Shown: positions 2,128 to 34,400 of the stretch, piece after piece
How the letters are laid out: every line of letters starts with the position of its first letter
How positions within the stretch are numbered: the first letter of the stretch is position 1
Virus record (IMG/VR): IMGVR_UViG_3300032282_001355
Location: 1-42,687 of that record
DNA: 42,687 bases
Origin: a virus
Direction: 5' to 3' (one strand)
Position numbers and translations under genes: made by a program
The notes under the pieces: model-generated
Databases searched by the model: none
What the model was told of the DNA's origin: nothing
Seen by the model: only the letters and a program-made list of their open reading frames with translations

Positions 2128-2505
2128 TTATGCGCGACGGATTCCACGGGGGTCATCGACCACCGCTTCGACCGTGTCGTCGTTGATGATGCGGAACTCC
2201 CGACCGTGGATGACCACGCGGGTGCCCGAGTAGGGGCGGGTCAGAACAAAATCACCTTCCTTGCACCAAGGGCCAGTGGGGAAGCGATCTTTATCTGCGT
2301 AGGCCAATTCACCAAGCTTCACTACGAAAAGAACAACGGTAGTAAGTTCTTCCGTGCGCTTCGTATCTTCTGCTTTGATTAATCCGCCTTCGTACTCTTC
2401 TTCTACATGAGGCACCGCACACAGAATGCGATAGCCTTTTGGCACGGGAAGTTGCGATGCTTTCTTCGCCTCTTCCTGTGTCTTCTCGACATCAATATTA
2501 CTCAT
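2128..2505 (-). CDS. GroES-like co-chaperonin
   Basis: A 125-residue protein with a GroES fold signature. Residues about 22-30 (PKGYRILCA) match the first strand, a flexible segment follows (EEEYEGGLIKAEDTKR, the position of the mobile loop that contacts GroEL), and the C-terminal part (RPYSGTRVVIHGREFRIIND) corresponds to the barrel end. Phage GroES-like proteins (such as T4 gp31) team with host GroEL to fold the capsid protein. The start MSNID was chosen because its ATG overlaps the stop of the preceding gene (ATGA at 2505-2502); the open frame extends 24 codons further upstream but inside that gene. It sits directly before the scaffold, consistent with a capsid-folding role. Confidence 0.72.
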   Translation of the reverse strand: MSNIDVEKTQEEAKKASQLPVPKGYRILCAVPHVEEEYEGGLIKAEDTKRTEELTTVVLFVVKLGELAYADKDRFPTGPWCKEGDFVLTRPYSGTRVVIHGREFRIINDDTVEAVVDDPRGIRRA

Positions 2506-2690
2506 TCTTCTTCCATCCTTTTTGCAAGGTCTTTGATGTAACTTGATGCGAGGTCGAGACCCTGTAACGCCCCGCATAGTCTCTTGTACTCACCTTCGTC
2601 CAATTTGCCTTGGATGAGGTTTTCCACGATCAGGTTGCGCTCTTCCTTGATTTTTGTGGCAAGGTATTCCAGAGCGTTTGAATACGACAT
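2502..2690 (-). CDS. Small helical head-module protein
   Basis: A 62-residue protein, almost entirely helical (EYLATKIKEERNLIVENLIQ...), ending in a charged tail MEEE. I do not recognise a function. The start is supported by AAGGAG eight bases before the ATG. It lies between portal and co-chaperonin, 3 bases from the portal stop, and overlaps the next gene by four bases (ATGA), so it is translationally coupled. Small helical proteins at this place are seen in related environmental phages. A portal- or scaffold-associated role is only a guess. Confidence 0.6.
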   Translation of the reverse strand: MSYSNALEYLATKIKEERNLIVENLIQGKLDEGEYKRLCGALQGLDLASSYIKDLAKRMEEE

Positions 2691-2693
2691 GAA

Positions 2694-5249
2694 TTACTCC
2701 TTCTTTTTTGGCTTCTCCGATTTCTGGTTGGCCTGATTTTGCGTGGCAGTGCGTTGGATATCTGCTGCCTCTTTGGCCTTGCCGATCTCGACGCCAATCT
2801 TGACGCCATCACGACGCTGTTCAGCCTTGTGCTTCTCAATGTCCACACCAAGACGTGCGGCCTCAAGCTGCTGACGCCCAGCAATCTCTGCTTTGCGTAG
2901 CTCCATCTCGTCTTCCTTCGCGGCAGCGTCCATGAGGTCTTTTTGCTGCTTGCGTTGGATTTCGGCCTGCTTGATCTGTGCATCCATCTGCACTTGCTGT
3001 TGTTTGGTCTGCGCTTGAAGCTGCTTGATCTGCAAATCCATCTGCTGCATTTGGATGAGCGGGTCTTGCGCTTGCTGTGCGGCTTGCTGCATTTGCGCTT
3101 CGGCTTGATCCTTTTGAAGGACACGGGCTGCTGCGGCTGCAGATATTTGTGCGAGTTGAACTTCCAACTCGGGCGGTAGATCGTATTCGTCCGTATCGTT
3201 TTGCGGGAGCGGCGGGAGGCTGACCCCCAACTGCTTCTCGATTTCGCGACGGTATTGGAACGCCGTGTGCTCCATGATGTGGGCTTGGATCGCCGCCATC
3301 ATTTCTTGTGCCTTCGGATTCTGCCCCATGACCTGCATCATCTTCGGGTCTTGCATCAGTGCCATGTGCACAGCAATGTGGGCTTCGTGATCTTGGTAAA
3401 TGAATGCCTTGAGCGGCTTACCCGTCATGACATCCATGTTCTCCGTGACCGGATCACGCGGCTTTTGATCATCCGGTGACGGCACGATCTTCTCAGCGTT
3501 CTTCACGCCAAGCGTTTCAATCATCTGGCGGTGCAAGTACGGCAGGTCATAAAGCTGCGGCGCGGTCTGACTGAGTTGCAACACCGCTTGGTACTGCACA
3601 ACCTTTTGACTCATCGTAGCCGCGTTCGGATCGGCGACCGGGATCACATCCACGTTGTCGTAGTCCGACTTCTTGGCTTTCTTGCTGCCAATCTCAGGCT
3701 CGTACGAATATTCTTCCGGAGTGTTGTCACGGATGATTGCAGCGAGGAGTTTGAACTCCTGCTTCATCGCGTAGTACACGCGAGCCTGCACTGCCGTCAT
3801 AACCTTCAGCACGCGCTCAAGCACGGCAAGCGTTGTACCCACCGGAGCCTGCGAGGACATATCGCTGATCTTCAAGTCCGACACCGCAGCGAAGCGGCGT
3901 CCGTCCTCGACCACTTTGTCCATCAACTGAGCCAAAGTCTGGCTCGGTTCTTTGTATGGCAGCGGCAGGATGTTGTCGCGGATCGCGCCACTCGGCACGT
4001 CTACGTCGCGGAACTCGCCCGGAGCAATCGGAGTATCGTCGCCTTTGATTCGCAGTCCGCGAGATTTGAGACCGCCCGGTAGATTGCTGAGCGTTCCCGC
4101 GTCGATAAGCTGTCGTAGAAGTGACGTGGCAGCTTTGCTATGGCCTCCAATGAGGTGGATAAGTCCGAAATAATAAAAACCAAATCCGGGGATGTATCCG
4201 TAGTGGACGAAGTGCTGTCGCTTCTCTTTGAGCTTGTCGTCTTCTCGCCAGTTGCGTCGAATAGCGAGAATCGTTCCTGTGCCTTTCTCAATCGTGACGA
4301 CGTACGGAAGGGCGATTCCTGTTTCATTGTTTTGTTTATCCACATCCGGATAACCCGGCAAGTCAATGTTGACGTGCATCTCAAGCAACTGGAACCGGTC
4401 GTCCATGCTTGCGCTGAAGCCTTGATCCTCTGCCTTCTGCTTCTCCACCTCGTCCATGACGCGCATCGGCTCGCCAAGATCAATATCGCGGTAGAAGCCT
4501 GCATATTGCAGCTTGATCAACTCATTTTTCGTCTTGCGCATGCGGTGCGTGACGCGATCCGCTGTCTTCAAATTCGATGCGCCATACGGCACGATGATGT
4601 CTTCGGCTGCGATATACACCGCCGTTTGACGGTTCAGGCTCGGGTCGAAGTACACCTTCTTGAAAGCGTTGCCGGACAAGGCAAGAGATAAGAGGAGACG
4701 CTCGTGCTCCGGGCGATACTCCTGCATCACCTCGGTCAACTCGTAGTTCATATCATCAGCCACGCGAATGGCCGAGTCTTTCTTCTCCGGGGTTTCCTTG
4801 CCAATGATCTTGGTCTTGACCGGACCCATCGCCGGGAAGACTTCCATGATCGTTTCGGACTGGAACTTGACTGCGCTCTCCATCAAGAGCGGGTGGAATA
4901 CACCGCACGCACCCGGCCACGGTTCCGTACGCTCTTCATATCGGATGCCAAGAATCTTCAAACCCTTGACGTACGTGTCGAGCCAATCTTTGCGGCTGGC
5001 TAGGTCTTGCTCATAGTGACCAATCAAATCACCGGCAAGAGTCTGCAACTCAGTTTCGCTCATGAACTCGGCGAGGTTCGCGTCGAAGTCTTCCGCACGC
5101 GGCTCTTGTTTGGAGAGGCTAATCGCCACGCCGTCCATGTTGATATCAACCGACTCCGGATCTTCGATTACGATCTCCATGGCGGGTTCTTCACCGGCCA
5201 ACGCCTCCAAGCCTTGGGGCGCTTCGTATAACGCTTTGTCGATAGCCAT
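2694..5249 (-). CDS. Portal protein (P22-type)
   Basis: An 851-residue portal protein, the dodecameric ring at the head vertex through which DNA enters and leaves. Residues about 60-130 (LIGHYEQDLASRKDWLDTYV, then PWPGACGVFHPLLMESAVKF) match the N-terminal stem/wing region of P22-like portals. The central part (YIAAEDIIVPYGASNLKTADR) and residues 400-560 (DKVVEDGRRFAAVSDLKISD) form the clip and crown region. Residues about 690-840 form a long Gln/Ala/Lys coiled coil, corresponding to the C-terminal barrel helix of P22-type portals. The start has AGGAAG upstream, and the ATG overlaps the previous stop by one base (TAATG). At 851 residues it is longer than the roughly 725 of P22, mainly in the coiled-coil tail. 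Confidence 0.88.
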   Translation of the reverse strand: MAIDKALYEAPQGLEALAGEEPAMEIVIEDPESVDINMDGVAISLSKQEPRAEDFDANLAEFMSETELQTLAGDLIGHYEQDLASRKDWLDTYVKGLKILGIRYEERTEPWPGACGVFHPLLMESAVKFQSETIMEVFPAMGPVKTKIIGKETPEKKDSAIRVADDMNYELTEVMQEYRPEHERLLLSLALSGNAFKKVYFDPSLNRQTAVYIAAEDIIVPYGASNLKTADRVTHRMRKTKNELIKLQYAGFYRDIDLGEPMRVMDEVEKQKAEDQGFSASMDDRFQLLEMHVNIDLPGYPDVDKQNNETGIALPYVVTIEKGTGTILAIRRNWREDDKLKEKRQHFVHYGYIPGFGFYYFGLIHLIGGHSKAATSLLRQLIDAGTLSNLPGGLKSRGLRIKGDDTPIAPGEFRDVDVPSGAIRDNILPLPYKEPSQTLAQLMDKVVEDGRRFAAVSDLKISDMSSQAPVGTTLAVLERVLKVMTAVQARVYYAMKQEFKLLAAIIRDNTPEEYSYEPEIGSKKAKKSDYDNVDVIPVADPNAATMSQKVVQYQAVLQLSQTAPQLYDLPYLHRQMIETLGVKNAEKIVPSPDDQKPRDPVTENMDVMTGKPLKAFIYQDHEAHIAVHMALMQDPKMMQVMGQNPKAQEMMAAIQAHIMEHTAFQYRREIEKQLGVSLPPLPQNDTDEYDLPPELEVQLAQISAAAAARVLQKDQAEAQMQQAAQQAQDPLIQMQQMDLQIKQLQAQTKQQQVQMDAQIKQAEIQRKQQKDLMDAAAKEDEMELRKAEIAGRQQLEAARLGVDIEKHKAEQRRDGVKIGVEIGKAKEAADIQRTATQNQANQKSEKPKKKE

Positions 5250-9246: not shown

Positions 9247-9263
9247 CGTTACAAATTGTAACG
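9247..9263. promoter_or_regulatory. 17-bp palindromic operator, copy 1
   Basis: CGTTACAAATTGTAACG is a perfect 17-bp palindrome around a central A. It is the leftmost of seven copies of CGTTACAAnTTGTAACG confined to 9247-14441. It lies about 125 bases upstream of the promoter at 9387. Confidence 0.7.
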
Positions 9264-9302
9264 ACGACCACGCCACACCAAAGAATTCCCAAAGAATTCC
9301 AG

Positions 9303-9319
9303 CGTTACAAAGTGTAACG
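9303..9319. promoter_or_regulatory. 17-bp palindromic operator, copy 2
   Basis: CGTTACAAAGTGTAACG differs from the perfect palindrome at one base. It lies 40 bases after copy 1 and about 70 bases upstream of the promoter at 9387, so the pair could bind a dimer of dimers. Confidence 0.65.
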
Positions 9320-9386
9320 ATACGCGCTAGGCCGCACGTGATCGCGCGCCGCAATACCGCGCGACTAGGCCGCGCGCAACCGACAC

Positions 9387-9414
9387 TTGACACCCGCTGA
9401 GCGTCATGTAGAAT
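9387..9414 (+). promoter_or_regulatory. Promoter of the Ala/Lys-rich gene
   Basis: TTGACA (9387-9392), a 16-base spacer and TAGAAT (9409-9414) form a strong sigma70-like promoter. Transcription would begin near 9421, about 40 bases before the ATG at 9463, which has GAGG at 9449-9452 as ribosome binding site. Two copies of the palindromic operator lie upstream. Confidence 0.6.
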
Positions 9415-9462
9415 TGTCCATGCGATCGACGTGATCGCCTACTAACTTGAGGACTTGCAAAG

Positions 9463-10179
9463 ATGAAAACGACATACAAGACATTCGAAGCGCGCGTGAA
9501 AGCCGGTCTCGCTGGTGAGGCTAAACTCGCGGACATCGAAGCCGACATTCTCGCGGCGGACTTGCTACCGCTGGCCAATTCGAAGGGCGTGATTGATACC
9601 AAGTCGCCCGGCTTCAAGGCCTTGCAGGGCCGCGCCTACAAAGTCGCGAGCGCGTGGTACACGAGTGAAGCGCGCGTCATTGACGGGAAGGTGTACGAGC
9701 CCACCGCGCTCAAGCAGGCGATTGATAAGAAAGGTACGGCGCACCCGGCGCGCGACGGCGCGCTTTCGGGTATTCGCGTGAAGGCCTTCCGCTGGACGGG
9801 CAAACTGGTCAAGGCGCATGAGGCCGCGCAGAGCGCAATCGTCGCGGCGCAGAATGGCGCAGGGCGCGCCACGTCCGGCAAGGTAGCCGTCGCGCTAAAA
9901 CGCAGCAAGGCCGCGAAGGGCAAGGCCGCGAAGGGCAAGGCCGCGTATGCCATCATCGATGCTAGCCAGTCCGTGCCGGAATTAATCGACGCACTAGGCA
10001 AGGCTCTGGCCGCGCTCAAGCCGCAGGCGCGCATTGTGGCCGCAACTAATCTGGTCGCGACGGCGCAAGGCTGGGTGAACCAAGCGCGCACCGAAATGGA
10101 CGGGAAGCCGCGAGTCACCGCGAAGCCGACGAAGCGCGCGAAGGCCGCGACGCAAGCCGCACCCGCCGCCGTCCAATAA
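9463..10179 (+). CDS. Ala/Lys-rich basic protein of unknown function
   Basis: A 238-residue protein, strongly basic and very rich in Ala and Lys. Residues 1-120 look like a folded domain (WYTSEARVIDGKVYEP, RVKAFRWTGKLVKAHE). Residues about 143-160 carry the repeat KAAKGKAAKGKAA, like histone H1-type tails, and the C-terminus is another Lys/Ala/Pro tail. Binding to nucleic acid is therefore likely but unproven. The DNA is visibly richer in GC (many CGCG steps) than the genes around it, suggesting recent transfer. It has its own promoter (9387) and intrinsic terminator (10209-10236), making a one-gene unit. GAGG ten bases upstream supports the start. I do not recognise the family. Confidence 0.6.
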   Translation: MKTTYKTFEARVKAGLAGEAKLADIEADILAADLLPLANSKGVIDTKSPGFKALQGRAYKVASAWYTSEARVIDGKVYEPTALKQAIDKKGTAHPARDGALSGIRVKAFRWTGKLVKAHEAAQSAIVAAQNGAGRATSGKVAVALKRSKAAKGKAAKGKAAYAIIDASQSVPELIDALGKALAALKPQARIVAATNLVATAQGWVNQARTEMDGKPRVTAKPTKRAKAATQAAPAAVQ

Positions 10180-10208
10180 ACAATCCCGCGCCACACGGCG
10201 CAACCTCG

Positions 10209-10236
10209 AAGCCCCGCGCGAGCGGGGCTTTTTTTT
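10209..10236 (+). terminator. Rho-independent terminator
   Basis: AAGCCCCGC, loop GCGA, GCGGGGCTT form a nine-pair stem (10209-10230) followed by a run of T to 10236. This textbook intrinsic terminator closes the one-gene unit that starts at 9387. Confidence 0.9.
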
Positions 10237-10275
10237 GTCCGCGCGATTCACACCGCATCGCATGGCCGCGATGCG

Positions 10276-10312
10276 CGAAGCCAGTCACTGCGAAGCCAGT
10301 GACGAAGCCAGT
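10276..10312 (+). repeat. Three direct repeats CGAAGCCAGT
   Basis: CGAAGCCAGT occurs at 10276-10285, 10291-10300 and 10303-10312, spaced 15 and 12 bases. The middle copy also takes part in a CACTG/CAGTG hairpin. The spacing near one or one and a half helical turns would suit protein binding. Confidence 0.65.
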
Positions 10313-10332
10313 TCCCACTGCCCAAAGCCCTT

Positions 10333-10351
10333 TTTGTGCCATTGGCACAAA
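10333..10351. repeat. 19-bp perfect palindrome TTTGTGCCA-T-TGGCACAAA
   Basis: TTTGTGCCA (10333-10341) and TGGCACAAA (10343-10351) form a perfect palindrome around a T. The half-site recurs as an iteron across the next 370 bases. Confidence 0.75.
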
Positions 10352-10352
10352 C

Positions 10353-10721
10353 TTTGTTCCACGAAACTACATTAGCGACACAAGATAGAGCGTTGAAATC
10401 ATTGGAAAAAAACGACTTTGTTCCGTTGTTCCAGTATTTTCAGCATAGGGGGCTAGGAAAGCGTGGCCGATAGCCGGGTAAGGCAACGGAGCGCGGATAG
10501 TAAAAATTTCAAAAAACCCACCGTACCCTCTCAAAATCACTGGAACAACGGCACAAACGGTATAACTATTAATTCTTCTTTATATCTTTATGTATACTAC
10601 TAACTAATATAATCAATAACTTATCTATCTTTTTCTTTTCTTCGCACACGGAATCGCACCTCGCATTTTGTGTCAGATGTAAAGAAAACCCGGCACAAAC
10701 CGTGGCACACGTGGCACAAAA
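10353..10721. repeat. Iteron array TTTGTKCC
   Basis: Forward copies are TTTGTTCCA (10353-10361), TTTGTTCCG (10417-10425) and TTGTTCCAG (10426-10434). Reverse-strand copies are CTGGAACAA within 10540-10551, GGCACAAAC (10550-10558), GGCACAAAC (10692-10700), the shorter GGCACAC (10704-10710) and GGCACAAAA (10713-10721). The pair 10417-10434 and 10540-10557 forms an 18-base inverted repeat with one mismatch. The array surrounds the AT-rich tract at 10559-10640. Confidence 0.6.
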
Positions 10722-10728
10722 CCCCCGG

Positions 10729-10745
10729 CGTTACAACTTGTAACG
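10729..10745. promoter_or_regulatory. 17-bp palindromic operator, copy 3
   Basis: CGTTACAACTTGTAACG has perfect eight-base arms around a central C. It lies 73 bases upstream of the -35 box at 10819; copy 4 lies downstream of the same promoter, so the two bracket it. Confidence 0.7.
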
Positions 10746-10818
10746 ATAGATTCGATACGTTCTATACGACGCCGACACAAATACCGTGAAAAAACGAACC
10801 CGAGTTGTGTACCGCCTA

Positions 10819-10847
10819 TTGACACTCGTGTTCAGATAAGTTAACAT
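10819..10847 (+). promoter_or_regulatory. Early promoter A
   Basis: TTGACA (10819-10824), a 17-base spacer and TAACAT (10842-10847). The whole stretch from CTATTGAC to about 40 bases further is closely repeated at promoter B (13356), including CTCGTGTTCA in the spacer and GTGG...GGACA downstream. Transcription would begin near 10854. Confidence 0.65.
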
Positions 10848-10896
10848 TGCTCTCGTGGTGTGGACATATTTATACGACGCCACTTGTTTAACCCGG

Positions 10897-10913
10897 CGTT
10901 ACAACTTGTAACG
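10897..10913. promoter_or_regulatory. 17-bp palindromic operator, copy 4
   Basis: CGTTACAACTTGTAACG in the untranslated leader downstream of promoter A, ending nine bases before the ribosome binding site GAGAGG at 10923-10928. Confidence 0.72.
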
Positions 10914-10936
10914 CTACCAACCGAGAGGACATGACG

Positions 10937-11749
10937 ATGGTCAAGATGAAGCAAAGCAATGGCCGTGTGATCTACGAGGGGCCGTCACAACTCGACGGTA
11001 ACCCAATCGTGGTCATCGCCATTGGGTTCAAGACAGGCTCATCAAACCGCAAGACCGGCAAGATGATTCAAACCTACATCATGCGCGCGGACTCGCTACC
11101 CACCGAGGCCGTACAGAGTGGTGACGACTTTTCTATATGTGGCAACTGCATCCATCGGGGTAAGACTGTACGGTCTGCGTCCGGCGAGACCCGCAACGTG
11201 GGTCGCACGTGCTACGTCAACCTAGGCCAAGGTCCGCTCGCAGTCATGCGGTCATACCTACTAGGCAAGTACCCGGCATGGGACGGTACCGGCGTCAACG
11301 GTCAATTTGTCCGCATCGGCACGTATGGTGACCCTGCCGCAGTACCCACTTATGTATGGGACGAGTTGCTACGGGACGCATCCGGCCACACGGGATACAC
11401 GCATCAATGGCAAGACCCACGTTTCGCTTCACTGCGAACATTCTGCATGGCATCGGTGGACTCGCCCGAGGAGGCAGCATCGGCACACGCCAAAGGGTGG
11501 CGCACATTCCGTGTCGGTATGCCCAACCACGCACCACAGACTCCCAAGGTCGAGGCGTTGTGTCCGGCATCAGCCGAGGCCGGTCGCAAGTTGGACTGCG
11601 CGCGGTGTCTTGCCTGCTCCGGCGTATCGGGTAGTGACGGGTCACATCGACGCGGTTCGATCTACATCCCTGCGCATGGCGGGTTCGCAGTCATGGCCAA
11701 CATCAACAAACGAGCAGCGTTACAAGTTGTAACGGGAGGTGTGCGATGA
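10937..11749 (+). CDS. Conserved Cys-rich phage protein, unknown function
   Basis: A 270-residue protein with conserved Cys and His (ICGNCIHRGKT near residue 67, GRTCYVNLGQGP near 90, ALCPASAEAGRKLDCARCLA near 215) and the motif RIGTYGDPAAVP near residue 126. From memory this matches a widespread phage family of unknown function, which I believe is catalogued as DUF7227; this was not checked. The Cys clusters suggest a zinc or Fe-S site. The ATG at 10937 was preferred over 10931 because GAGAGGACnnnACGATG is repeated before the gene at 14462, where the second ATG position is used. It is the first gene after promoter A and overlaps the next gene by four bases. A copy of the palindromic operator lies inside its 3' end. 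Confidence 0.6.
   Translation: MVKMKQSNGRVIYEGPSQLDGNPIVVIAIGFKTGSSNRKTGKMIQTYIMRADSLPTEAVQSGDDFSICGNCIHRGKTVRSASGETRNVGRTCYVNLGQGPLAVMRSYLLGKYPAWDGTGVNGQFVRIGTYGDPAAVPTYVWDELLRDASGHTGYTHQWQDPRFASLRTFCMASVDSPEEAASAHAKGWRTFRVGMPNHAPQTPKVEALCPASAEAGRKLDCARCLACSGVSGSDGSHRRGSIYIPAHGGFAVMANINKRAALQVVTGGVR
11718..11734. promoter_or_regulatory. 17-bp palindromic operator, copy 5 (inside a gene)
   Basis: CGTTACAAGTTGTAACG is a 17-bp palindrome inside the last codons of the Cys-rich gene, touching the ribosome binding site GGGAGG (11734-11739) of the gene at 11746. Keeping the palindrome within coding sequence argues that it is functional. Confidence 0.68.
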
Positions 11750-12048
11750 AGTATTGGGATCACGTTGTGTGGATGGCGTGGTTGGGTCGTACTGATCATG
11801 CGTCACCACGTTATCACCCGGCTAAAGCAGCACGGATCTATGCACGGTTCACGCCCAACATCGAGCGAGCGCAAAGGTACGTGACTGCCGAGAACATGGT
11901 GAGACGGCACAAGTATTCATCTTATTCGGCGTATCAACGGGCAGTAGACCATGCCTTTTCGTACTCAACTGATGCATGGCAGCACCAGTATTGGTTGGAC
12001 GTGGGCACGGTGGTATTAAAAATTCAACGAGAGGAGGACAAGCGATGA
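11746..12048 (+). CDS. Small protein of unknown function
   Basis: A 100-residue basic, aromatic-rich protein (many Trp, Tyr, His and Arg; YWDHVVWMAWLGRTDH at the start, WQHQYWLDVG near the end). I do not recognise the family. It overlaps the upstream stop (ATGA, 11746-11749) and has GGGAGG as ribosome binding site, with operator copy 5 directly before it. It overlaps the next gene by four bases, so the set is translationally coupled. No catalytic or membrane motif is visible; the Trp/Arg-rich make-up would suit nucleic-acid binding. Confidence 0.55.
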   Translation: MKYWDHVVWMAWLGRTDHASPRYHPAKAARIYARFTPNIERAQRYVTAENMVRRHKYSSYSAYQRAVDHAFSYSTDAWQHQYWLDVGTVVLKIQREEDKR

Positions 12049-12263
12049 ACCAAGCAACCCAAACTCAACCCGAGCAACTCGTGCTCGACCTGTTCGATAG
12101 GCAGTACCTTGCCTTGCAGAAAGAGGCAGTTGATCTGTCGATCTGCGAGCGGTGGTCGATCCGTGATATCGCCATCAAGTTAGGTGTGCCCGAGAAGTTC
12201 GTGAAGGATTCGCTGCACGAGTTTCTGTCCGGCGATTGCAACGATTACTTTGTAGGAGAGTGA
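12045..12263 (+). CDS. Small helix-turn-helix-like protein
   Basis: A 72-residue protein. Residues about 38-64 (ERWSIRDIAIKLGVPEKFVK) have the pattern of a helix-turn-helix: a helix, a turn at Leu-Gly-Val, and a recognition helix. The start is at the ATGA overlap with the upstream stop, preceded by GAGGACAAGCG, the early start context. It lies in the operon controlled by the palindromic operator, so it is one of the candidates for an operon regulator. It has no second domain for dimerisation that can be seen. Confidence 0.6.
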   Translation: MNQATQTQPEQLVLDLFDRQYLALQKEAVDLSICERWSIRDIAIKLGVPEKFVKDSLHEFLSGDCNDYFVGE

Positions 12264-12264
12264 G

Positions 12265-12516
12265 ATGAGTAATAAAACTTGGATGCACAGAGCAGCCTAC
12301 GCAGTCATGCGTAAGGACACGTGGAACGATGGGCAGGGGTACGACAGCGACTATCCTGTCGAGGGCGTGTTTCTTTCGCGTGATGCTGCGGAGTGGTATG
12401 CCGCAGGGTTGATCAACGATATGCGCAAGACAGACGAGTACGATGACCTTTTAGATGACGAGTTGTTTGAGGTTCGTGAGGTTCAATTGGTAACCGCATT
12501 GGGCGAGGAGGTGTGA
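12265..12516 (+). CDS. Small acidic protein of unknown function
   Basis: An 83-residue protein with an acidic C-terminal half (KTDEYDDLLDDELFEVREVQ). The N-terminal half carries YPVEGVFLSRDAAEWYAAGL. Unrecognised. GGAG lies eight bases before the ATG, and the gene starts one base after the upstream stop. The charge pattern resembles small phage proteins that mimic DNA, but that is only an impression. Confidence 0.55.
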   Translation: MSNKTWMHRAAYAVMRKDTWNDGQGYDSDYPVEGVFLSRDAAEWYAAGLINDMRKTDEYDDLLDDELFEVREVQLVTALGEEV

Positions 12517-12517
12517 G

Positions 12518-12688
12518 ATGAGTAAGCAAAAAGTGTTGGAGTTGACCAAGAAAATCCATGCCTATGCCAACAAGGCAGAGCGGCCCGAGGATTACTTGTT
12601 TGACCCCAAGGTCAATAAGGCACGGTTTGTCCCGCCACGATTCCCGTTGACGTGGAGCGAGTGGCTGAAGCAGAAGAAGGAGGGCTGA
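12518..12688 (+). CDS. Small basic protein
   Basis: A 56-residue open frame starting MSKQKVLELTKKIHAYANKA and ending WSEWLKQKKEG. GAGGAGG lies about eight bases before the ATG, the gene starts one base after the upstream stop, and the next gene begins two bases after its own stop. This tight packing supports a real gene despite its size. It is rich in Lys and Pro, with a helical N-terminus. Function unknown. Confidence 0.6.
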   Translation: MSKQKVLELTKKIHAYANKAERPEDYLFDPKVNKARFVPPRFPLTWSEWLKQKKEG

Positions 12689-12690
12689 TC

Positions 12691-13128
12691 ATGCAGACCT
12701 TTCTACCATCACCATCGTACGACGAGTCCGCTCGTCTGCTCGACTACAAACGGCTAGGCAAGCAGCGGGTGGAGACCAAGCAAATCCTGCTCGCACTGGG
12801 TAAGACAACGGGCGGGTGGGTCAACCACCCTGCCACCAACATGTGGCGCGGTCACGAGGTCAGCCTGTGCCAGTACGGTCTCGCCATGTGTTGGGAGTGG
12901 CAACGACGTGGGTACAAGGACACGCTGATGGACTTCTTTGCCGAGGCACTGCATCAGTACCAGTCTGATGGTCGCACGTTCATGCCGCCACCGTGGCTAG
13001 GCGAGGAGGAAGTTCATGCGTCACACCGTAGCAACTTGCTGCGGAAAGACCGGGATTTTTATTCTAAGTACGGATGGGCAGAGTCTGATGATCTTCCCTA
13101 CGTTTGGCCAAGCCTATCGAGAAATTAA
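12691..13128 (+). CDS. MSMEG_6728-type / pyrimidine-dimer DNA glycosylase-like protein
   Basis: A 145-residue protein that closely follows, from memory, the bacterial MSMEG_6728 family (annotated as pyrimidine dimer DNA glycosylase or endonuclease V-like). Characteristic stretches are SARLLDYKRLGKQRVE (residues 12-27), WVNHPATNMWRGHE (about 42-55), GLAMCWEWQRRGYKDT (about 60-76) and HASHRSNLLRKDRDFY (about 110-125). The family is thought to excise damaged bases, as T4 DenV does, and would act on phage or host DNA after ultraviolet damage; activity for this branch is not established. AGGAGGG lies before the ATG, which starts two bases after the upstream stop. The length is normal for the family. 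Confidence 0.75.
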   Translation: MQTFLPSPSYDESARLLDYKRLGKQRVETKQILLALGKTTGGWVNHPATNMWRGHEVSLCQYGLAMCWEWQRRGYKDTLMDFFAEALHQYQSDGRTFMPPPWLGEEEVHASHRSNLLRKDRDFYSKYGWAESDDLPYVWPSLSRN

Positions 13129-13130
13129 TT

Positions 13131-13340
13131 ATGCCGAGTAAAACATTAGACACGAGACGAGTACCGCCACGCGGCAAGTTCACCGGGTTCCGCTACCTGT
13201 CCAACGAGGAACTACGCATGACCGGCAAGGAGTGGAACGAACTAGCCGAGCAGAAACGGTTCGCATGGAAACGGGTGGGCGACCCTCGCGAAGGATGCAA
13301 AGACTTGTGTGGTGGAGGGTATGAGGTTTGGATTGACTGA
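13131..13340 (+). CDS. Small basic protein of unknown function
   Basis: A 69-residue protein (MPSKTLDTRRVPPRGKFTGF..., ending GGGYEVWID). It carries two Cys near the end (CKDLCGGG) and a helical centre (NEELRMTGKEWNELAEQKRF). The start at 13131 lies two bases after the upstream stop but has only a weak ribosome binding site. Last gene before promoter B, so it closes the first early operon. Function unknown. Confidence 0.5.
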   Translation: MPSKTLDTRRVPPRGKFTGFRYLSNEELRMTGKEWNELAEQKRFAWKRVGDPREGCKDLCGGGYEVWID

Positions 13341-13355
13341 CTTGTCGGTAGCCTA

Positions 13356-13384
13356 TTGACCCTCGTGTTCAACTTTGTTAACAT
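13356..13384 (+). promoter_or_regulatory. Early promoter B
   Basis: TTGACC (13356-13361), a 17-base spacer and TAACAT (13379-13384). It is a near copy of promoter A at 10819, sharing CTATTGAC, CTCGTGTTCA and GTTAACAT. Transcription would begin near 13391, and operator copy 6 lies in the leader. Confidence 0.65.
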
Positions 13385-13429
13385 ATGTCCTGTGGTTGGG
13401 ACAATCGTTTGATTGATTTAATTCACGTT

Positions 13430-13446
13430 CGTTACAAGTTGTAACG
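13430..13446. promoter_or_regulatory. 17-bp palindromic operator, copy 6
   Basis: CGTTACAAGTTGTAACG in the leader of the gene at 13471, ending about eleven bases before its ribosome binding site GGAGGA. Confidence 0.72.
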
Positions 13447-13470
13447 ACAATTATTTAGGAGGACTGAACG

Positions 13471-14379
13471 ATGACTGTCGAATTATCAACACCGACTCAC
13501 ATCACAACCCTGCGTGACTGCGCCATGCAGTGCAACCTAGAGGTGCGCATGTGGGTGGGTACTGTGCAAGACGATCAACTCAGTGACGAGGTCACCGAGT
13601 CCAAGCAAGCCGAGCGTGGCAGTGCCAAGGTCATCAAGAACCTGCTCGCGTCATGCCATGAGCATACGCTTGTCAAACGGTACCGCTCGTTCGCGTACAA
13701 CTGGTTCAAGCAACGCTCGTATCCGTACGTGGGATCGACGGGACTCGTGTCGAACTACGGCATACCCAAGATCATGAACGAGTTCGATAACGAGATTAAG
13801 CCGGGCTACATGGCGACGGTGAATCCGTTCCTGCTTGCCTACGCTGATCTGCGCGCTAACTACGCATTCAAGATGCAGGGCAACATGTACAACGCATCGG
13901 ACTATCCCGAGGTCGATGAGATTCGCGACAAGTTCAGCATCAACTTGTATATGCAGCCCATCCCGAGTTCGGACTTCAGTCAACGCATCAGCGCGGACAT
14001 TGCCGAGCAGTTGAACATGCATTACTCACGCCAAGCCGAGCGGTTCATACGTGAGACGGGCGAGCGTCAGTTGGCACAACTGGCCAAGGTGATGCAGTCG
14101 ATCTCGCACTGCTGCGAGGTGGACATCAAAGAGACGGCGACGGGCGAGACTAAGGTCACGCGCCGTAGGTTGCACGAGTCTACGTTGGAGCGCGCGATTG
14201 AATACTGTGATTCGTTCAAGTACTTCAATCCATCCGGTGATGCACGGTTGGAAGGCATACGTGCAGACTTGGAGCGTGTGTTGCAGGGCGTGGACATCAA
14301 GACCCTGCGTGACTCCGACTCGCTACGTGCGACGGTCAAGTCTGATGTCGATGACATCATGAAGCGGTTCGGACTTTGA
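13471..14379 (+). CDS. DUF3150-like partner of the AAA+/VWA pair
   Basis: A 302-residue, mostly helical protein with no catalytic motif visible. It resembles, from memory, phage and plasmid proteins of the DUF3150 type, which are often found beside a MoxR/CobS-like ATPase and a VWA protein, as here. Features include GSAKVIKNLLASCHEHTLVK near residue 50, a Tyr/Asn-rich centre, and C-terminal helices (RADLERVLQGVDIKTLRD). The start has GGAGGACTGAACG before the ATG, the early start context. It is the first gene after promoter B. It could be an adaptor or substrate of the ATPase; this is inference from gene order. Confidence 0.5.
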   Translation: MTVELSTPTHITTLRDCAMQCNLEVRMWVGTVQDDQLSDEVTESKQAERGSAKVIKNLLASCHEHTLVKRYRSFAYNWFKQRSYPYVGSTGLVSNYGIPKIMNEFDNEIKPGYMATVNPFLLAYADLRANYAFKMQGNMYNASDYPEVDEIRDKFSINLYMQPIPSSDFSQRISADIAEQLNMHYSRQAERFIRETGERQLAQLAKVMQSISHCCEVDIKETATGETKVTRRRLHESTLERAIEYCDSFKYFNPSGDARLEGIRADLERVLQGVDIKTLRDSDSLRATVKSDVDDIMKRFGL

Positions 14380-14424
14380 TTGTTGAAATTTTTATTTGTT
14401 TAGTCTTTGTCTTATTCACCACTT

Positions 14425-14441
14425 CGTTACAACTTGTAACT
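14425..14441. promoter_or_regulatory. 17-bp palindromic operator, copy 7
   Basis: CGTTACAACTTGTAACT matches the operator except for the last base. It lies in the 82-base gap before the AAA+ gene and ends seven bases before the ribosome binding site GAGAGG. No convincing promoter is seen in this gap, so the site may act on readthrough transcripts or on an unseen promoter. Confidence 0.66.
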
Positions 14442-14461
14442 ACAACTGAGAGGACACTACG

Positions 14462-15577
14462 ATGAGTGCTATTTCTTTGCGTCGGACGTTGGACATCAAC
14501 GCAGTTACCCGGTTGGTCGCACTGACACCGGGCGTGACTAAACTCCTGCTCTCCGAGCCGGGGTGTGGCAAGACGAGTGTGCTGCGTACCGTGGCCGAGT
14601 ATCACGGTGACAAGTGGCGGGACATCAAGGATCGTTACCCGACTGACAAGTTTCAGTACGTGTACATCGATGCGCCCAACACGCGAGACGGTGACTTGTT
14701 CCTCAACTACCCGGACAAGGACACCAAGACGTTGGAGCAGTGGGTCACTTCGCTGATCGACTTCAACGACCCGCGACCCAAGGTGATCTTGGTTGACGAG
14801 GCACTGAAGGTGCTGCGCTACAACAAGCCGCTCTTCACTCGCCTGTTCTTGGAGTACTGCGTCGGCAATCGCAAGTTACCCGAGAACAGCATCGTGTTGG
14901 CTACGTCTAACAACTCCGGCGAGGGGTTGGGTGATTCGCTTGGCGCGCACGAGGCTGACCGCATCACCGTGATCAACATGGCCAAGCCTAGTGCAGACAA
15001 CTGGGCAAATGGTTGGGCATCGAACAACGGTATCAGTTCGATCACCCGTGCATGTGTGCGCATGAACCCGCGTGTCATGGCGAGTTACATGGACGGCGTG
15101 ACTACCAAAGATAACCCGTACATCTACCACCCCAAGACTAACCCGACATCGTTCGTCTCGCCGCGCTCGCTCGCACTGATGGATGTGTATGTGCGTAATC
15201 GTGCGGTGCTTGGAGAAGATGTGACTGCTGCTGCGATTGAGGGTACGACGAACCCTGCGTTCGCTCAGTTGTTGTCATCGTTCATTGCACTGGAGAAGGA
15301 ACTGATCGACCCACGCAAACCGTTGACTGATGGTGAGAACACTCCGTTACCTACTAACCCTGCGGCGTTGCTCATGCTGATGTACAACATGGTCGATATC
15401 ATTGAGACGCAGGACGAGATGACCAACGCTATTACGTACGTCACACGTGCAGAGTCACGTGACATGCAGTCAGTGTTCATGTCGATGCTCGCGGACAACA
15501 ATCGCACAACCAAGTTGGGTGCGATGAACGCCAAGGTCAAAGACTGGATGGTCAAGAACCACCGGATCGCACGGTAA
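14462..15577 (+). CDS. AAA+ ATPase, MoxR/CobS-like
   Basis: A 371-residue AAA+ ATPase. Walker A is SEPGCGKTS (31-39) with Lys37, Walker B is KVILVDEA (107-114), and a sensor-1-like stretch follows (SIVLATSNNSGEG, near 143-155), then an arginine-rich C-terminal lid region. MoxR/CobS-type ATPases form rings that act with VWA-domain partners to remodel proteins or insert metals, and the VWA partner is the next gene, 10 bases away. The start has GAGAGGACACTACG before the ATG. Related CobS-like genes are known in some T4-like cyanophages. The target in this phage is unknown. Confidence 0.75.
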   Translation: MSAISLRRTLDINAVTRLVALTPGVTKLLLSEPGCGKTSVLRTVAEYHGDKWRDIKDRYPTDKFQYVYIDAPNTRDGDLFLNYPDKDTKTLEQWVTSLIDFNDPRPKVILVDEALKVLRYNKPLFTRLFLEYCVGNRKLPENSIVLATSNNSGEGLGDSLGAHEADRITVINMAKPSADNWANGWASNNGISSITRACVRMNPRVMASYMDGVTTKDNPYIYHPKTNPTSFVSPRSLALMDVYVRNRAVLGEDVTAAAIEGTTNPAFAQLLSSFIALEKELIDPRKPLTDGENTPLPTNPAALLMLMYNMVDIIETQDEMTNAITYVTRAESRDMQSVFMSMLADNNRTTKLGAMNAKVKDWMVKNHRIAR

Positions 15578-15587
15578 GGGAGGCAGC

Positions 15588-16838
15588 ATGAATACCGCTA
15601 TGAAATTAGATGCGCCGGTTGATATCTCGCGACTGCGCGACCGACTGACCAAGGCACACGTCAAGTTGATCACGCACCCCGAGACACAGTTGTATGCAGG
15701 TGTGTTCTTGATGGGCAAGAGTGAGATCGTCGAGGGCGTACCGACTGCGTACACCGATGGCATCAACAAGGTGTACGGCGCAGAGTTCTGTGCGTACCTC
15801 ACCAAAGATTCGCAGTTGCGTTATGTGGTCATGCATGAGAACGGTCACATTGCTCTGCGTCATCTGCCCCGTCACCGTGACTTTTGGGAGGAGGATGCAC
15901 AGTGCGCGAACATGGCCGCTGACTACGTGATCAACGGTCTGATCGAGGAGTTCAAAGACAAGACGTTGTGTGAGCAACCGCCTGCACCGTTCACTCCGCT
16001 CTACGATCCGATGTTCAAGAATTGGTCGTTCGGCGAGGTGTATCGCTACCTGCGCAAGGAGAAGCAGGACGAGCAACAAGGCAAGCAGGATGGCGACGGC
16101 AAGGGCGATGGCAAGTTCAGCCAACGTGGCGGTGCGCTTGATGAGCATGACTTGTCCAAGATCAAAGACATGACACCCGAGCAGCAGAAGGAAGTCATGG
16201 ACCGTGTGGCACAGGCACTGGAGCAGGGCGGCATGCTTGCCGGGATGTTCGGTAAACCCGTGCCGCGCATTGTGTCGGATGCTCTGACACCCAAGGTCAA
16301 TTGGGCTGACGAGTTGCGTGAGTTCGTCAACAACATGACGCAGGGCAGGGACGATGACTTGTCACTGCGTCGGTTCGACCGACGTTGGTCATCACTCGAC
16401 ATCATCATGCCGGGTTCGATTGCTGAGACTGTCGGCGAGATTGTGTGGATGAGTGATACGTCGGGTTCGATTGATGACAAGCAGAACGCTGAAGCAATGT
16501 CAGAGTTTTGCAGTCTCGTGAAGACGATTCAGCCCGAGCGTGTGCGCATGATTTGGTGGGATCACATGGTACATGCCGAGCAAGTGTTCACGCCCGATGA
16601 GTACGACAACATTGCTAGCGCACTCAAGCCGGTGGGTGGTGGCGGGACTCGCGTCTCGTCATGCTCCGAGTACTACCACAAGCAGGGGCTGAAGGCAGAC
16701 TGTGTGGTGGTGTTCACGGATGGCTACGTCGAGAAGAACATCGACTGGCAGAACATGCCGCCGACATTGTGGGTGGTGACGCAGAACAAAGAGTTCGATG
16801 CACCGACTGGCCGCATCGTTCAGTACTACAACGACTAA
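15588..16838 (+). CDS. Metallopeptidase-VWA protein (DUF2201/CobT-like)
   Basis: A 416-residue two-part protein. Residues about 70-120 hold a zinc-protease motif HENGH (83-87), followed by ADYVIN, the usual place of the third metal ligand in DUF2201-type putative metallopeptidases. A charged Gln/Lys/Gly-rich linker covers 155-180. The C-terminal VWA domain (about 283-416) has a complete metal-ion adhesion site: DTSGS (290-294), Thr354 in GGGT, and Asp378 in FTDGY. With the AAA+ gene just upstream this forms a MoxR/VWA pair. GGGAGG precedes the ATG. The protease motif is intact, so proteolysis is possible, but no substrate can be named. Confidence 0.75.
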   Translation: MNTAMKLDAPVDISRLRDRLTKAHVKLITHPETQLYAGVFLMGKSEIVEGVPTAYTDGINKVYGAEFCAYLTKDSQLRYVVMHENGHIALRHLPRHRDFWEEDAQCANMAADYVINGLIEEFKDKTLCEQPPAPFTPLYDPMFKNWSFGEVYRYLRKEKQDEQQGKQDGDGKGDGKFSQRGGALDEHDLSKIKDMTPEQQKEVMDRVAQALEQGGMLAGMFGKPVPRIVSDALTPKVNWADELREFVNNMTQGRDDDLSLRRFDRRWSSLDIIMPGSIAETVGEIVWMSDTSGSIDDKQNAEAMSEFCSLVKTIQPERVRMIWWDHMVHAEQVFTPDEYDNIASALKPVGGGGTRVSSCSEYYHKQGLKADCVVVFTDGYVEKNIDWQNMPPTLWVVTQNKEFDAPTGRIVQYYND

Positions 16839-16854
16839 TTTCGAGGACACAACG

Positions 16855-17847
16855 ATGACAACTTCATACAACATATTCCACGAGAGCGTCCCGGTGAGTG
16901 AGCGCACGACACTGATGCGCTCCGACTTGTACCGTCCGACGTTGCGTATATGCACGACGAGCAAGATCGTGGTGAGTCATGTCGAGCCGACGCTCGACAA
17001 TCGTGGGCTGATTGTGACGCTGATGCTGAACACGGGGTTCCCGGTGCTGATACTGACGCATGCGGATGGACACTTCTATGCGGCTACGACAGACAGTTGC
17101 AACACCATGTCATCCACAACGGTATGCGACACGATCAACCCGATGTACATGGTGAAAGCACTGTACAAGTCCGTCAAAGGCGCGGAAGACTTTGCGTCAG
17201 TAATGAACTACGCGAACACGATTGTCGAACAGATGATGGTTGACTTGGGCAGACACACGTTCAATGCCATCGTGGGCGAACGCAAGATATCCATGCAGTA
17301 CCCACCGTTCTTGGACAATGCCACGTTGGGAGCGTTGGTCGAGGTGTTCTTTGGTGAACGCAACGCCATTGATCTGCCGATAGAACAACGTCAAGTACTA
17401 GAGTCGATACGAGCCGAGCGCAATCAACGTGTGGCGAACCTGCGGGACGTAACTGATCGGATGGTTGAGATGCTCAATCCGAACAAATTGATGGTTACGT
17501 ACCTGCCCAAACATGGTTATACCGTGCAACAGTTGAGTATGCCGAGGGACTTCCACGAGCCGTTTGTTAATTCGAAAGCGGTCGCGCGGGATAGTATCAA
17601 GCAGGTCACGCCCATAACATTCTGTCGTAAGTTGGAAGACTTACCGGCGGACATGTACGACCAAGTTTTAGGTTCGCTGACGCTAGCCAAGATGCACTTG
17701 CTTAGTCGCTATCCCGAGTTAGCACAGACAATTAGCCCCGAGCCGCACGACAAACTTATCCACTCGATCAGACCAATTGTGTCGCAGGAACTGAGTGCTG
17801 TGGTTGAGTCGCACCATGACCGCCGTTCTATTGTGATGTCTGTATGA
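16855..17847 (+). CDS. Protein of unknown function, AAA+/VWA operon
   Basis: A 330-residue protein I do not recognise. The N-terminal 80 residues are beta-rich (RGLIVTLMLNTGFPVLILTH), residues 95-190 are mixed, and about 190-225 are a helical Arg/Glu stretch (RQVLESIRAERNQRVANLRD). No catalytic motif is seen. The start MTTSYN was chosen because CGAGGACACAACG lies just before its ATG, the same context as the other early genes; the frame stays open further upstream but overlaps the VWA gene. It follows that gene by 16 bases and overlaps the next by four, so it belongs to the same operon. Confidence 0.6.
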   Translation: MTTSYNIFHESVPVSERTTLMRSDLYRPTLRICTTSKIVVSHVEPTLDNRGLIVTLMLNTGFPVLILTHADGHFYAATTDSCNTMSSTTVCDTINPMYMVKALYKSVKGAEDFASVMNYANTIVEQMMVDLGRHTFNAIVGERKISMQYPPFLDNATLGALVEVFFGERNAIDLPIEQRQVLESIRAERNQRVANLRDVTDRMVEMLNPNKLMVTYLPKHGYTVQQLSMPRDFHEPFVNSKAVARDSIKQVTPITFCRKLEDLPADMYDQVLGSLTLAKMHLLSRYPELAQTISPEPHDKLIHSIRPIVSQELSAVVESHHDRRSIVMSV

Positions 17848-31283: not shown

Positions 31284-31467
31284 ACCGGAGTACATGCTTC
31301 CGTTTGAACAGATGAACGTGGGGGATAGTTTTTTCCTGCCCACTTTACGTCCGGCTGAAATGACGTATATCATTGACACACGGGCCAAGGTTGCCGGGGT
31401 GAAGGTCAAGTGTTACCCCGCGTCCAAGGATGGACACCTTGGTATCCGTGTATGGCGAATGCGTTAG
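31255..31467 (+). CDS. Small protein at the end of the early arm
   Basis: A 70-residue protein: MALDPTKLIEPEYMLPFEQM, then VGDSFFLPTLRPAEMTYIID, ending LGIRVWRMR. The pattern resembles small phage proteins with a DNA-binding-like beta fold, but I do not recognise it. The ATG at 31255 has GGAAG upstream and overlaps the primase end by 29 bases. Its stop TAG (31465-31467) overlaps the stop of the opposite-strand giant gene. Confidence 0.6.
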   Translation: MALDPTKLIEPEYMLPFEQMNVGDSFFLPTLRPAEMTYIIDTRAKVAGVKVKCYPASKDGHLGIRVWRMR

Positions 31468-34400
31468 TCTACGTCTGCCATGTACTTGTTCAACGACGCT
31501 CGCAAGTTGGACGGCAAGTAAAGGCCGTCAACGGCTTCCATGCCACGGCGTTGCCGTTCGCGGAACGAGGCCATGACCGACCTAGAGTCAATCCGGTACG
31601 TCGGGTTGGCCATGTTGAATTTGTCTATCGACTTGAATGCATCCGTGACTGCCTCGGAATCTCCGGCAGTGATTGCAGAGTACAAGTTTGATAGCAACGC
31701 GACTCGGCGGTTACGCAGTTTGTCGGATATGACGAACGTCGCACTGATACGTTCTTGCGTGGCGGCGAGTTCTGCCGGGGCAAAGCCGAAGACCTGCATA
31801 GCCGAATTCCACGTGCTGATGTCCTTCACCATCGGCAAACCGTTTTTGTTCAACGCGCCTTCCGTCGCATACCGCACTGCCTTGAGCGGATTACGTAGCG
31901 GAGCAGGTAGCATCGACTCCAATCCACGCCACACGTCGCCATCGGCAATCTTCTCAACCGCACGTACCTGCGCTTGAACCAAACCCATCGTCGGGCCAGC
32001 AACGCGCTCAACCATGTACATCGTGAAGCCGATATCTGCTAGCCGCTTCGGATCATCACGCCAGAACATATTGTTAAAACCGGTGCGGGACGCGATGTCT
32101 ACTTGCAGCATCGAATTTAGTGGGCCGCTCTTGCCTAATTGTCCAAGGCTATCCAGCACTTCCTGCTGCAAGTCATACGGCTCGTCATCGTCTCCCATCA
32201 GTGCCGCCGCCAAGGCTTCCGCCGCGCCGAAGAGCGGCATGCCTGCAATACCGGACACCATGTATGCACCCGCATAGACACCAAGCAACTGCTTACGGGC
32301 AATGGCTCGCTCTTCCGGAGTCGCGTCCACAATGTTCATGGCACGGCCAAACGCACGAGCCAAGTTGATGTTTTGCACCAAGGCGAATGTGCGGAAGGTC
32401 AAGAGCACACGACCCAGATTAGTTTGGTACCAGCGTGACGCTGCTTCGGGAAGAACAGTACCATTGATGTTGTTGTTCAGTCGGATGGATTCTTCGGCTG
32501 CAGTGAAGAAACTTTTACCCTTCTTGCGTGCCAGCATGAACGCCGCAAGCAACGTAGTCTCGCGGTTGAGTCGTTCTGAGTTCTTGAAAGTGTAGCCCAT
32601 GGCAAACTTGATTTTGTCCATGATGCTTTCATAGCCGCTGATTTTGGCGCGTTCGGCTTGACGCAGTTCCTGCTCTGCCGCTAGACCCACCACACCGCGC
32701 TTCTTGAGGTATTCAAAAAACCGCTTGTTCTCGCCAGTCGCGGCGTTGCCAAACGTGAAGTTGCCTTGCTCATCCACGCCGCCCTTGGCAAACATCTTCA
32801 TCGATTCAAGCATTGCACCCATGGCATTCATATAACCATAGCGGGCGCCCAGTGACGGTAGCGTCATCATGGGTAGAACAGTCGTATTGATCAGCGCAGA
32901 TGAGATGTTACCCGCGATACTGTAGACGTAGTTTGCCGACGCAAGTGCATTGACCCACGGAGCGTAACTTGGGTTGTAGGCAAAGTTGAGGCGTTGTCTA
33001 ATATCTTCTACGCCATCGAACACAGCTTTGGAGCTTAGCAGCTTACGGCCTTGTAACCTATTGGGAATATTGTTTTCCCTGAGATTGATCTCATACATCT
33101 TCGCCTGCTCGGCGATCTTCTTCATGGCATTTTCAATGGGCAGTGCGTACTTCAAGTTGCCCAACTGATAGGCCATTTTCGGCATGGTGCGTTCGTATAC
33201 AGCCAGCACGTCTTGGTCAAAGCCAAGCACGCCGAATTGCATCGCGCCATCTACTTCAAAGGTTTGGCGACTGCTGAGTTCCTGCCGCAACATGTTGGAG
33301 GGCAAGTACTGCAAGAAGGTGTCATACACACCGTCAATAACTTCTTTGCGGCTTTCCTCGGGCATGTCTTTGAGGCTTTCCTCAAGACGCGAGACTATCT
33401 GACCCAAGAAACCAACCGGCGGGGCACCTTTGTCTCTAAATTCCGATGGGCGCGTAGCACGTACGATACTGCCGGGTTTAGCACGGCCTTCTTCAAGTGC
33501 CTTCTTGATCGCGAGTTCACGTGCGGCTTGGTTCGGGAAAGACTCCTTTGACTGCCGTCCGTCAGTCGTTTCGTAGTACAACCAATGCTGACCTTCACCA
33601 CGCACAAGCGGGGCGTACATCGGTAGGCGTTCTTTCTCAAAGCGTTCGCGTAAATCGCGCACCACACCCATACCAAGTTGCCCGCCGTAGGTGTTGGCGA
33701 AGATGTCAAACTTCTTGTCCGCCATATCACGGTAGTCGGCAAACACACCAGACTTTTCATCTGCGCTCAGAATAGCGTTCTGGAAGTCAGTGGGCAGCGC
33801 GTAAAACTTTTTAGCAATGTCATATTGCTTCTGTTTGTTGGGAGACAGGCTGTCCCTACCATTCGCATCGCCTTCTGCGATTATGTTCTTCACTCGTTCA
33901 CTACGCACTTCCACTTGGAACAAGTTGATGTCGTTGACCACGTCCTTGTACTGGTCATACAGTTTTGGTTGCTTGCCTACAGTACGCGTGTACTTGCTAT
34001 GTCTCTCCGACGCAGTCTTCATCAAGTCCGTTGTATATGCCGCACGGTAACCCAAGAAGCGGTCGATCACACGCACTCGCGGTATGTACTTCTCAAGCAA
34101 CTCGGTAACTTGGGGAAGCGTGTAGGTCTTGTACTGAGCGCGCCGGGTAACCTCCGGCATCGTTGACAAGGCTTGCACAACGCCATTTCCCAAGGACTGG
34201 GACCACTCGGGCAGTTTTTCATTCTGCTCAAGCATGCCGCTCAGTACCTTGTTGTACTGCGACATTTGGAATCGGGGCGAAGCATTCGGCGGGGTGATCG
34301 GAGTCGGGTCAGTGCGGACACGCTCGGCGGCTTGAACCAATATCTGCGCGATATCGTTGTTGGAGTATTGTTTCACCACCCCAATCGACCGCAACCACTT

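Follow-up and report, generated by a model that had tools for sequence, protein, structure and literature searches.

A 42,687-nucleotide stretch of viral DNA (IMG/VR record IMGVR_UViG_3300032282_001355, positions 1 to 42,687; here called the window) was examined around positions 13471-17847, where three genes encode a DUF3150-family protein (g1), an AAA+ ATPase of the Midasin/MoxR/CobS class (g2) and a DUF2201 metallopeptidase fused to a VWA domain with a complete MIDAS metal site (g3). We found that these three genes form a module that stays together across phages and recurs on plasmids. The chances seem to us about even that their products are parts of one ATP-driven protein-remodelling machine that is directed to its target by the MIDAS and clips it. 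The pairing of ATPase and VWA protein was already known, and the novelty lies in g1 as a third component. Direct observation covers the gene content, linkage and distribution of the module, the conservation of its residues and the layout of its operator-like sites.

Linkage of the three genes in phages and on plasmids

Scans of IMG/VR with alignments of g3 and g1 returned at least 555 and at least 588 relatives, respectively; a scan of viral contigs with the single g3 protein gave no matches, an alignment being needed to find relatives. Among viral loci extending 4.5 kb or more to each side, g1, g2 and g3 shared a strand and a 6.5-kb span in 34 of 34 loci selected by g1 and in 29 of 32 selected by g3, some contigs occurring in both sets. 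A third selection, by the neighbouring DNA polymerase, was meant to avoid choosing on the module itself: of 18 loci reaching 7 kb or more upstream, 16 hold the trio, the module being truncated by the end of the locus in the remaining two. The polymerase alignment was built from module-bearing phages, so this result is valid for that environmental phage group, in which the module is near-universal. Four gene orders were seen (g1-g2-g3, g2-g3-g1, g2-g1-g3 and g3-g2-g1), and the order labels need 12 changes on the g3 tree against a mean of 28 when shuffled, showing that the order of the trio drifts while its linkage persists. The initial annotation had asked whether relatives scatter the genes or lose the HExxH or MIDAS residues; for g1-g3 the relatives do neither. 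VRR-NUC, DUF3310 and DNA polymerase genes are recurrent neighbours of the module in phages.

The window pair g2/g3 is homologous by profile to the gp24/gp25 pair of phage N4: the window proteins fall in PHROG 1297 and 1314, and the N4 loci were recovered by the same profiles. A search of whole phage records found g1 in MinM2 and did not find it in N4, SABI, PJN101, phiFa, PA5oct or EC152. One system thus exists in two versions, the trio and the N4-type pair. One PJN101 gene (L005:6430-7731; L numbers denote loci compared here) was rejected on alignment as the VWA partner of the PJN101 ATPase; judged by eye, it resembles an SPFH/Band 7 gene near the SABI ATPase (L004:960-1796). For the metallopeptidase-VWA gene of EC152 (Vequintavirinae, L008) the fetched stretch showed no ATPase partner; a gene annotated as anti-termination/anti-sigma factor lies near it. 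Four genome contigs matched as possible bacterial chromosomal copies and were not accepted as such; one of them (L173) also carries the phage polymerase and VRR-NUC, marking it as a phage contig inside a metagenome-assembled genome. A narrow scan of genomes found no host-chromosome origin of the module.

Relatives of g1 found by tblastn comprised three cyanophage records of identical length and 31 plasmids. Ten plasmid records were examined around the g1 match, and in eight (L010, L011, L013, L014 and L177-L180) the ATPase, g1 and VWA genes adjoin. On the Simplicispira plasmid (L009) the ATPase lies about 3.5 kb from g1. The Manganitrophus plasmid (L012:4836-7858) is a different DUF3150 setting, in which g1 has another AAA ATPase, DUF1257 and DUF2997 beside it and lacks a VWA gene in its vicinity. 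In seven Burkholderiaceae plasmids (L011, L013, L014 and L177-L180) a type IV secretion system (T4SS) operon follows closely downstream of the trio, and in four of these (L013, L014, L177 and L178) PRTRC genes lie upstream within the fetched stretch; we found no description of this ATPase-DUF3150-VWA cluster in the literature searched. The Terminase_6N and Phage_portal families were not found on the six plasmids behind L009-L014, a search of two families that does not wholly exclude phage-plasmids.

Two of the records called for separate notice. On the Paraburkholderia acidisoli plasmid the ATPase of the trio occupies two overlapping frames without an annotated coding sequence (L179:5628-6874), possibly owing to a frameshift. 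The 75-kb record of the A. baumannii 'plasmid' pRBH2-3 (L181) holds an RNA polymerase gene, an AAA ATPase and a VWA gene as in an N4-type phage, and is probably a phage genome.

The three proteins

The intact Walker motifs that the initial annotation assigned to g2 were borne out. Walker A reads SEPGCGKT, with K37, and Walker B reads LVDE, with D112 and E113; among 89 homologues G36, K37, D112, N150, R167 and R235 are kept in 100% and E113 in 95%. The protein was assigned to PHROG 1297 (E 9.5e-29), and the best solved match of the family profile was Midasin (E 4e-35). Above the Pfam cut-off it matched general AAA (PF00004) only. Since the window protein has no AAA_3 or AAA_5 match, we call it MoxR/Midasin-class and do not name a MoxR subfamily; its relatives match AAA_5 above and AAA_3 below the cut-off.

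Both metal sites claimed for g3 were likewise confirmed, by Pfam domains and by residues in 92 homologues. Its first domain matches the 'putative metallopeptidase' DUF2201_N (E 4e-22, 79.5 bits, cut-off 23.2) and its second the DUF2201 VWA domain (E 9e-16, 58.6 bits, cut-off 26.4), whose fold matches, among other VWA domains, the MIDAS domain of MDN1/Rea1. The HExxH motif is HENGH (H83, E84, H87) and the MIDAS consists of D290, S292, S294, T354 and D378. H83, E84, H87, H92, N108, D112, D290, S292, S294, G352, G353 and D378 are kept in 100% of the homologues, and T354 and T377 in 99%. PHROG 1314, to which g3 was assigned, is labelled 'HNH endonuclease'; we rejected this label, as the domains are DUF2201_N and VWA. 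Many RefSeq phage records bear it too, for example N4 gp25 (L002:4884-6026), and it is apparently a propagated misannotation.

The label 'DUF3150-like' proved right for g1 at the level of the family. The window protein itself has no Pfam match, PF11348 (DUF3150) included; 19 of 27 g1 family members matched PF11348 at E up to 1, the best at 1.1e-8 and above the cut-off, and the predicted fold of g1 matches a viral DUF3150 predicted protein (E 5e-16). The AlphaFold model, with two 40-residue helices and small strands, has a mean predicted local distance difference test score (pLDDT) of 88.9 and a predicted template modelling score (pTM) of 0.54, so that the local structure of g1 appears better determined than its overall arrangement. 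DUF3150 is a named family that is apparently unstudied, as no mention of it was found in the literature searched.

Operator-like sites and neighbouring genes

All four genes of the initial annotation were found where it had placed them (Table 1). The trio shares its strand and block with the DNA-metabolism genes of the window, while head and packaging genes lie on the opposite strand. Genes g2 and g3 are 10 nt apart, the start of g4 follows g3 by 16 nt, g4 and g5 overlap by 4 nt, and g1-g4 are all on the + strand.

Table 1. Genes and regulatory sites of the module region, with positions in the window
Feature	Position	Strand	Basis
Promoter B, CCTATTGACCCTCGTGTTCAACTTTGTTAACAT (TTGACC - 17 - TAACAT)	13352..13384	+	copy of promoter A at 10815-10847; promoter-like scan
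Operator-like palindrome GTTACAAGTTGTAAC before g1	13431..13445	.	one of six exact copies; syntenic site L015:4839-4858
g1, DUF3150-family protein, 302 aa	13471..14379	+	open reading frame call, homologues, profile and predicted-fold matches
Operator-like palindrome GTTACAACTTGTAAC between g1 and g2	14426..14440	.	syntenic site L015:5809-5828
g2, AAA+ ATPase of Midasin/MoxR/CobS class, 371 aa	14462..15577	+	PHROG, Pfam, family profile, Walker residues
g3, DUF2201 metallopeptidase fused to VWA with complete MIDAS, 416 aa	15588..16838	+	Pfam, PHROG, conserved residues
g4, protein without family match, lineage-specific, same operon	16855..17847	+	no family hits; relative is one contig
g5, 91 aa	17844..18119	+	open reading frame call; weak match to C-terminal part of ~290-aa family

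The initial annotation had put the module under an operator-controlled early promoter B; the promoter and the operator-type sites are real, and 'early' is a reading of the layout. Two exact copies of a 33-nt pattern with sigma-70-like boxes lie at 10815 and 13352, and shuffles gave none. The palindrome GTTACAAnTTGTAAC has six exact copies (at 9248, 10730, 10898, 11719, 13431 and 14426) and a near copy at 9304; allowing up to 3 mismatches, there are 11 matches in the window against 1.4 expected. The second of the two palindromes that flank g1, the one before g2, had not been mentioned in the initial annotation. Contig L015, the nearest relative of the window, has its own promoter repeat of differing sequence at 2862 and 4771, preceding g1, and a different palindrome (for example GCCTTACAAGTTTGTAAGGC at 4839-4858) in six copies, including one before g1 and one before g2. 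Across window 9248-14440 and L015:1411-5828 the palindromes are syntenic, and half-site and spacer differ (one versus two central bases). Places kept with the sequence changed are what is expected of a repressor-operator pair with switched specificity, and to judge from the sites it is as if the repressor of the two phages had switched in this way. The palindromes sit downstream of the promoter, within the leader, which leaves room for a role at the RNA level.

The conserved set is smaller than the four genes first proposed. Identity between the window and L015 is 69% for g1, 67% for g2, 64% for g3 and 34% for g4, and homologues of g4 were found only in L015 and L172, which are one contig. With a single relative, g4 was rejected as a member of the set: it is operon-linked and outside the conserved system. 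Counted from the start that has a ribosome site it is 330 aa long, and from an upstream ATG 349 aa. In this comparison g4 and g5 alone evolve fast among the module-region proteins, and g1-g3 are strongly constrained. In 85 environmental loci the module is followed by a family of about 290 aa (for example L047:8021-8827), without a PHROG match, that may be a further component in the phage group concerned; g5 weakly matches the C-terminal end of this family. g4 was not accepted as a member of this family (hhalign probability 22%) and bears no relation to the MinM2 neighbours MM2_63/64.

Elsewhere in the window, a gene at 2131-2577 (-) matches the phage co-chaperonin GroES family (phrog_3188, E 7e-9). 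Another, at 31467-36506 (-), encodes a protein of 1680 aa; the C-terminal third of this protein has its match among DarB-like antirestriction and giant phage proteins (phrog_10089, E 2e-59).

Possible function and comparison with known systems

In the proposed machine, g2 would form a ring as other MoxR/Midasin-class proteins do, and g3 would be the substrate adaptor, its VWA domain gripping an acidic side chain of the target via the metal site. ATP hydrolysis would pull or distort the gripped target, and the HExxH domain of g3 would clip it; that the gripped target is also cut is suggested by the added, invariant motif. g1 would join them as the third subunit, its likeliest role being scaffolding or target recognition. 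The trio, a core part of the phage group, would be expressed alongside DNA-metabolism genes from a repressible promoter that reads rightward, and the module probably acts early. The initial annotation is supported in its broader claim, an AAA+/VWA system of a chaperone-like kind whose protease-like motif is intact, with a DUF3150-type partner and operator-type sites. Something that any DNA element meets on setting up in a cell, a host or replication complex, is a more likely target than a capsid or tail protein, because the trio stands beside a conjugation operon on plasmids in which terminase and portal were not detected. Together with the position beside DNA-metabolism genes, these plasmids make an early intracellular target likelier than virion assembly.

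Several points weigh against this account. First, the plasmids examined are mutually related, so the seven cases do not amount to seven independent events; the T4SS may adjoin by chance, and the search for virion families on the plasmids covered two. Second, the third zinc ligand of g3 has two candidates, H92 and D112, both kept in 100% of the homologues. Third, a PDB fold search gave no solved structure matching g1. Fourth, we infer the three-protein complex, the active peptidase, the timing and the target. Lastly, the record of the PA5oct ATPase gp149 bears an 'ESI-MS/MS' note, which may mean that the ATPase was found with virions.

The PA5oct note also speaks for a chaperone-protease of virion assembly or maturation whose remodelling and trimming would be directed at a structural protein (tail, portal or internal protein), as does the virion-assembly role that PMC7824862 proposes for the MoxR and vWA-metallopeptidase pair in jumbo phages of group 2.2. 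A further precedent is the p618/p892 pair of Acidianus two-tailed virus (ATV), which, as cited in PMC7824862 and PMC4660213, acts in tail development. Against such a role stand the conjugative-type plasmids in which the two virion families were not found, the place of the trio in the DNA-metabolism block on the strand opposite the head and packaging genes, and the N4 homologues gp24/gp25, which are middle, not late, transcripts (PMC4193335). We regard virion assembly as possible, on the low side. The initial annotation knew of no assigned phage role for the set; the ATPase-VWA pair does have known phage relatives, N4 gp24/gp25 with no known function and the jumbo-phage version with its virion-assembly proposal.

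The alternative put forward initially, counter-defence or host takeover by a protease-like complex that takes apart a host complex of defence or regulation, would fit an operon with repressible promoters in an early-type region, an intact peptidase motif and the sharing of the module by phages and conjugative plasmids, since host defences confront either kind of element. Genes for counter-defence tend to be patchy in their distribution, whereas this module is present almost throughout its phage group and counts as core in N4-like phages (PMC4193335), which favours a core job; the three proteins are strongly constrained, fast evolution being confined to g4 and g5, and PADLOC gave no convincing match (mad8 at P-loop level only, E 0.003). 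We therefore find no specific support for host-protein destruction or counter-defence and consider it unlikely, although the plasmid trio is still compatible with a host-directed role. Similarly doubtful is a system of pure remodelling whose HExxH domain does not cut. In related ternary systems the peptidase domains of vWA fusions are often inactive (PMC7159879), and the third metal ligand of g3 is unproven; on the other side, all 92 sequences have H83, E84 and H87, and a purely structural zinc site would not require the glutamate. Least probable is a CobS/CobT- or CoxD/CoxE-like insertase loading a metal centre or cofactor into a phage enzyme, a use made of a MoxR-class ATPase and VWA partner in some bacterial systems (PMC7159879), given that the recurrent neighbours include no consistently linked metalloenzyme and that a pure insertase does not need the invariant HExxH.

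For the clipping machine that we prefer, a more specific and tentative version is that the trio is an establishment factor of phages and conjugative plasmids, remodelling and clipping a host or replication complex so that incoming DNA can settle. If the machine does act on a shared host complex, phages and conjugative plasmids would have a strategy of establishment in common. The plasmid copies offer a setting apparently without virions in which to search for the target.

CbbQ/CbbO and Midasin/Rea1 resemble the window system in combining an AAA+ ring with a MIDAS-bearing VWA protein that grips and remodels a target; they differ in having known targets and no DUF3150 protein, and to our knowledge neither has a metallopeptidase domain. 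CbbQ/CbbO is the closest analogue to have been tested: the VWA MIDAS binds an acidic residue of Rubisco, the AAA+ ring remodels the enzyme, and MIDAS mutants of CbbO abolish Rubisco activation; the authors foresee the same MIDAS contact for similar ATPase-VWA pairs (PMC4660213). The ATV pair likewise joins a viral MoxR ATPase to an interacting VWA protein; it belongs to an archaeal virus, serves extracellular tail development and, according to PMC7824862, has no peptidase domain. The MoxR-vWA-VMAP/FtsH/beta-propeller ternary conflict systems (PMC7159879) share a three-component logic built on MoxR and vWA but are host-encoded, and the third component of the window is none of theirs: no Pfam match to VMAP, FtsH or beta-propeller was found in g1, the g1 family or g4.

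The group 2.2 jumbo-phage pair has the same VWA-protein domain architecture and a linked MoxR-type ATPase; a third gene is not described there. The window module is linked to DNA-metabolism genes. The Burkholderiaceae plasmid cluster has all three genes adjacent on one strand, as in the window, in the order ATPase-g1-VWA and with the T4SS and, in four of seven, PRTRC as neighbours. N4 gp24/gp25 (Schitoviridae) consist of an ATPase and a DUF2201 metallopeptidase-VWA protein in the same two-gene order as the window, without a DUF3150 gene and with other genes able to separate the pair. They have been core genes of unknown function in N4-like phages for more than a decade (PMC4193335, PMC7650795), and the trio ties them to DUF3150, a third component to test.

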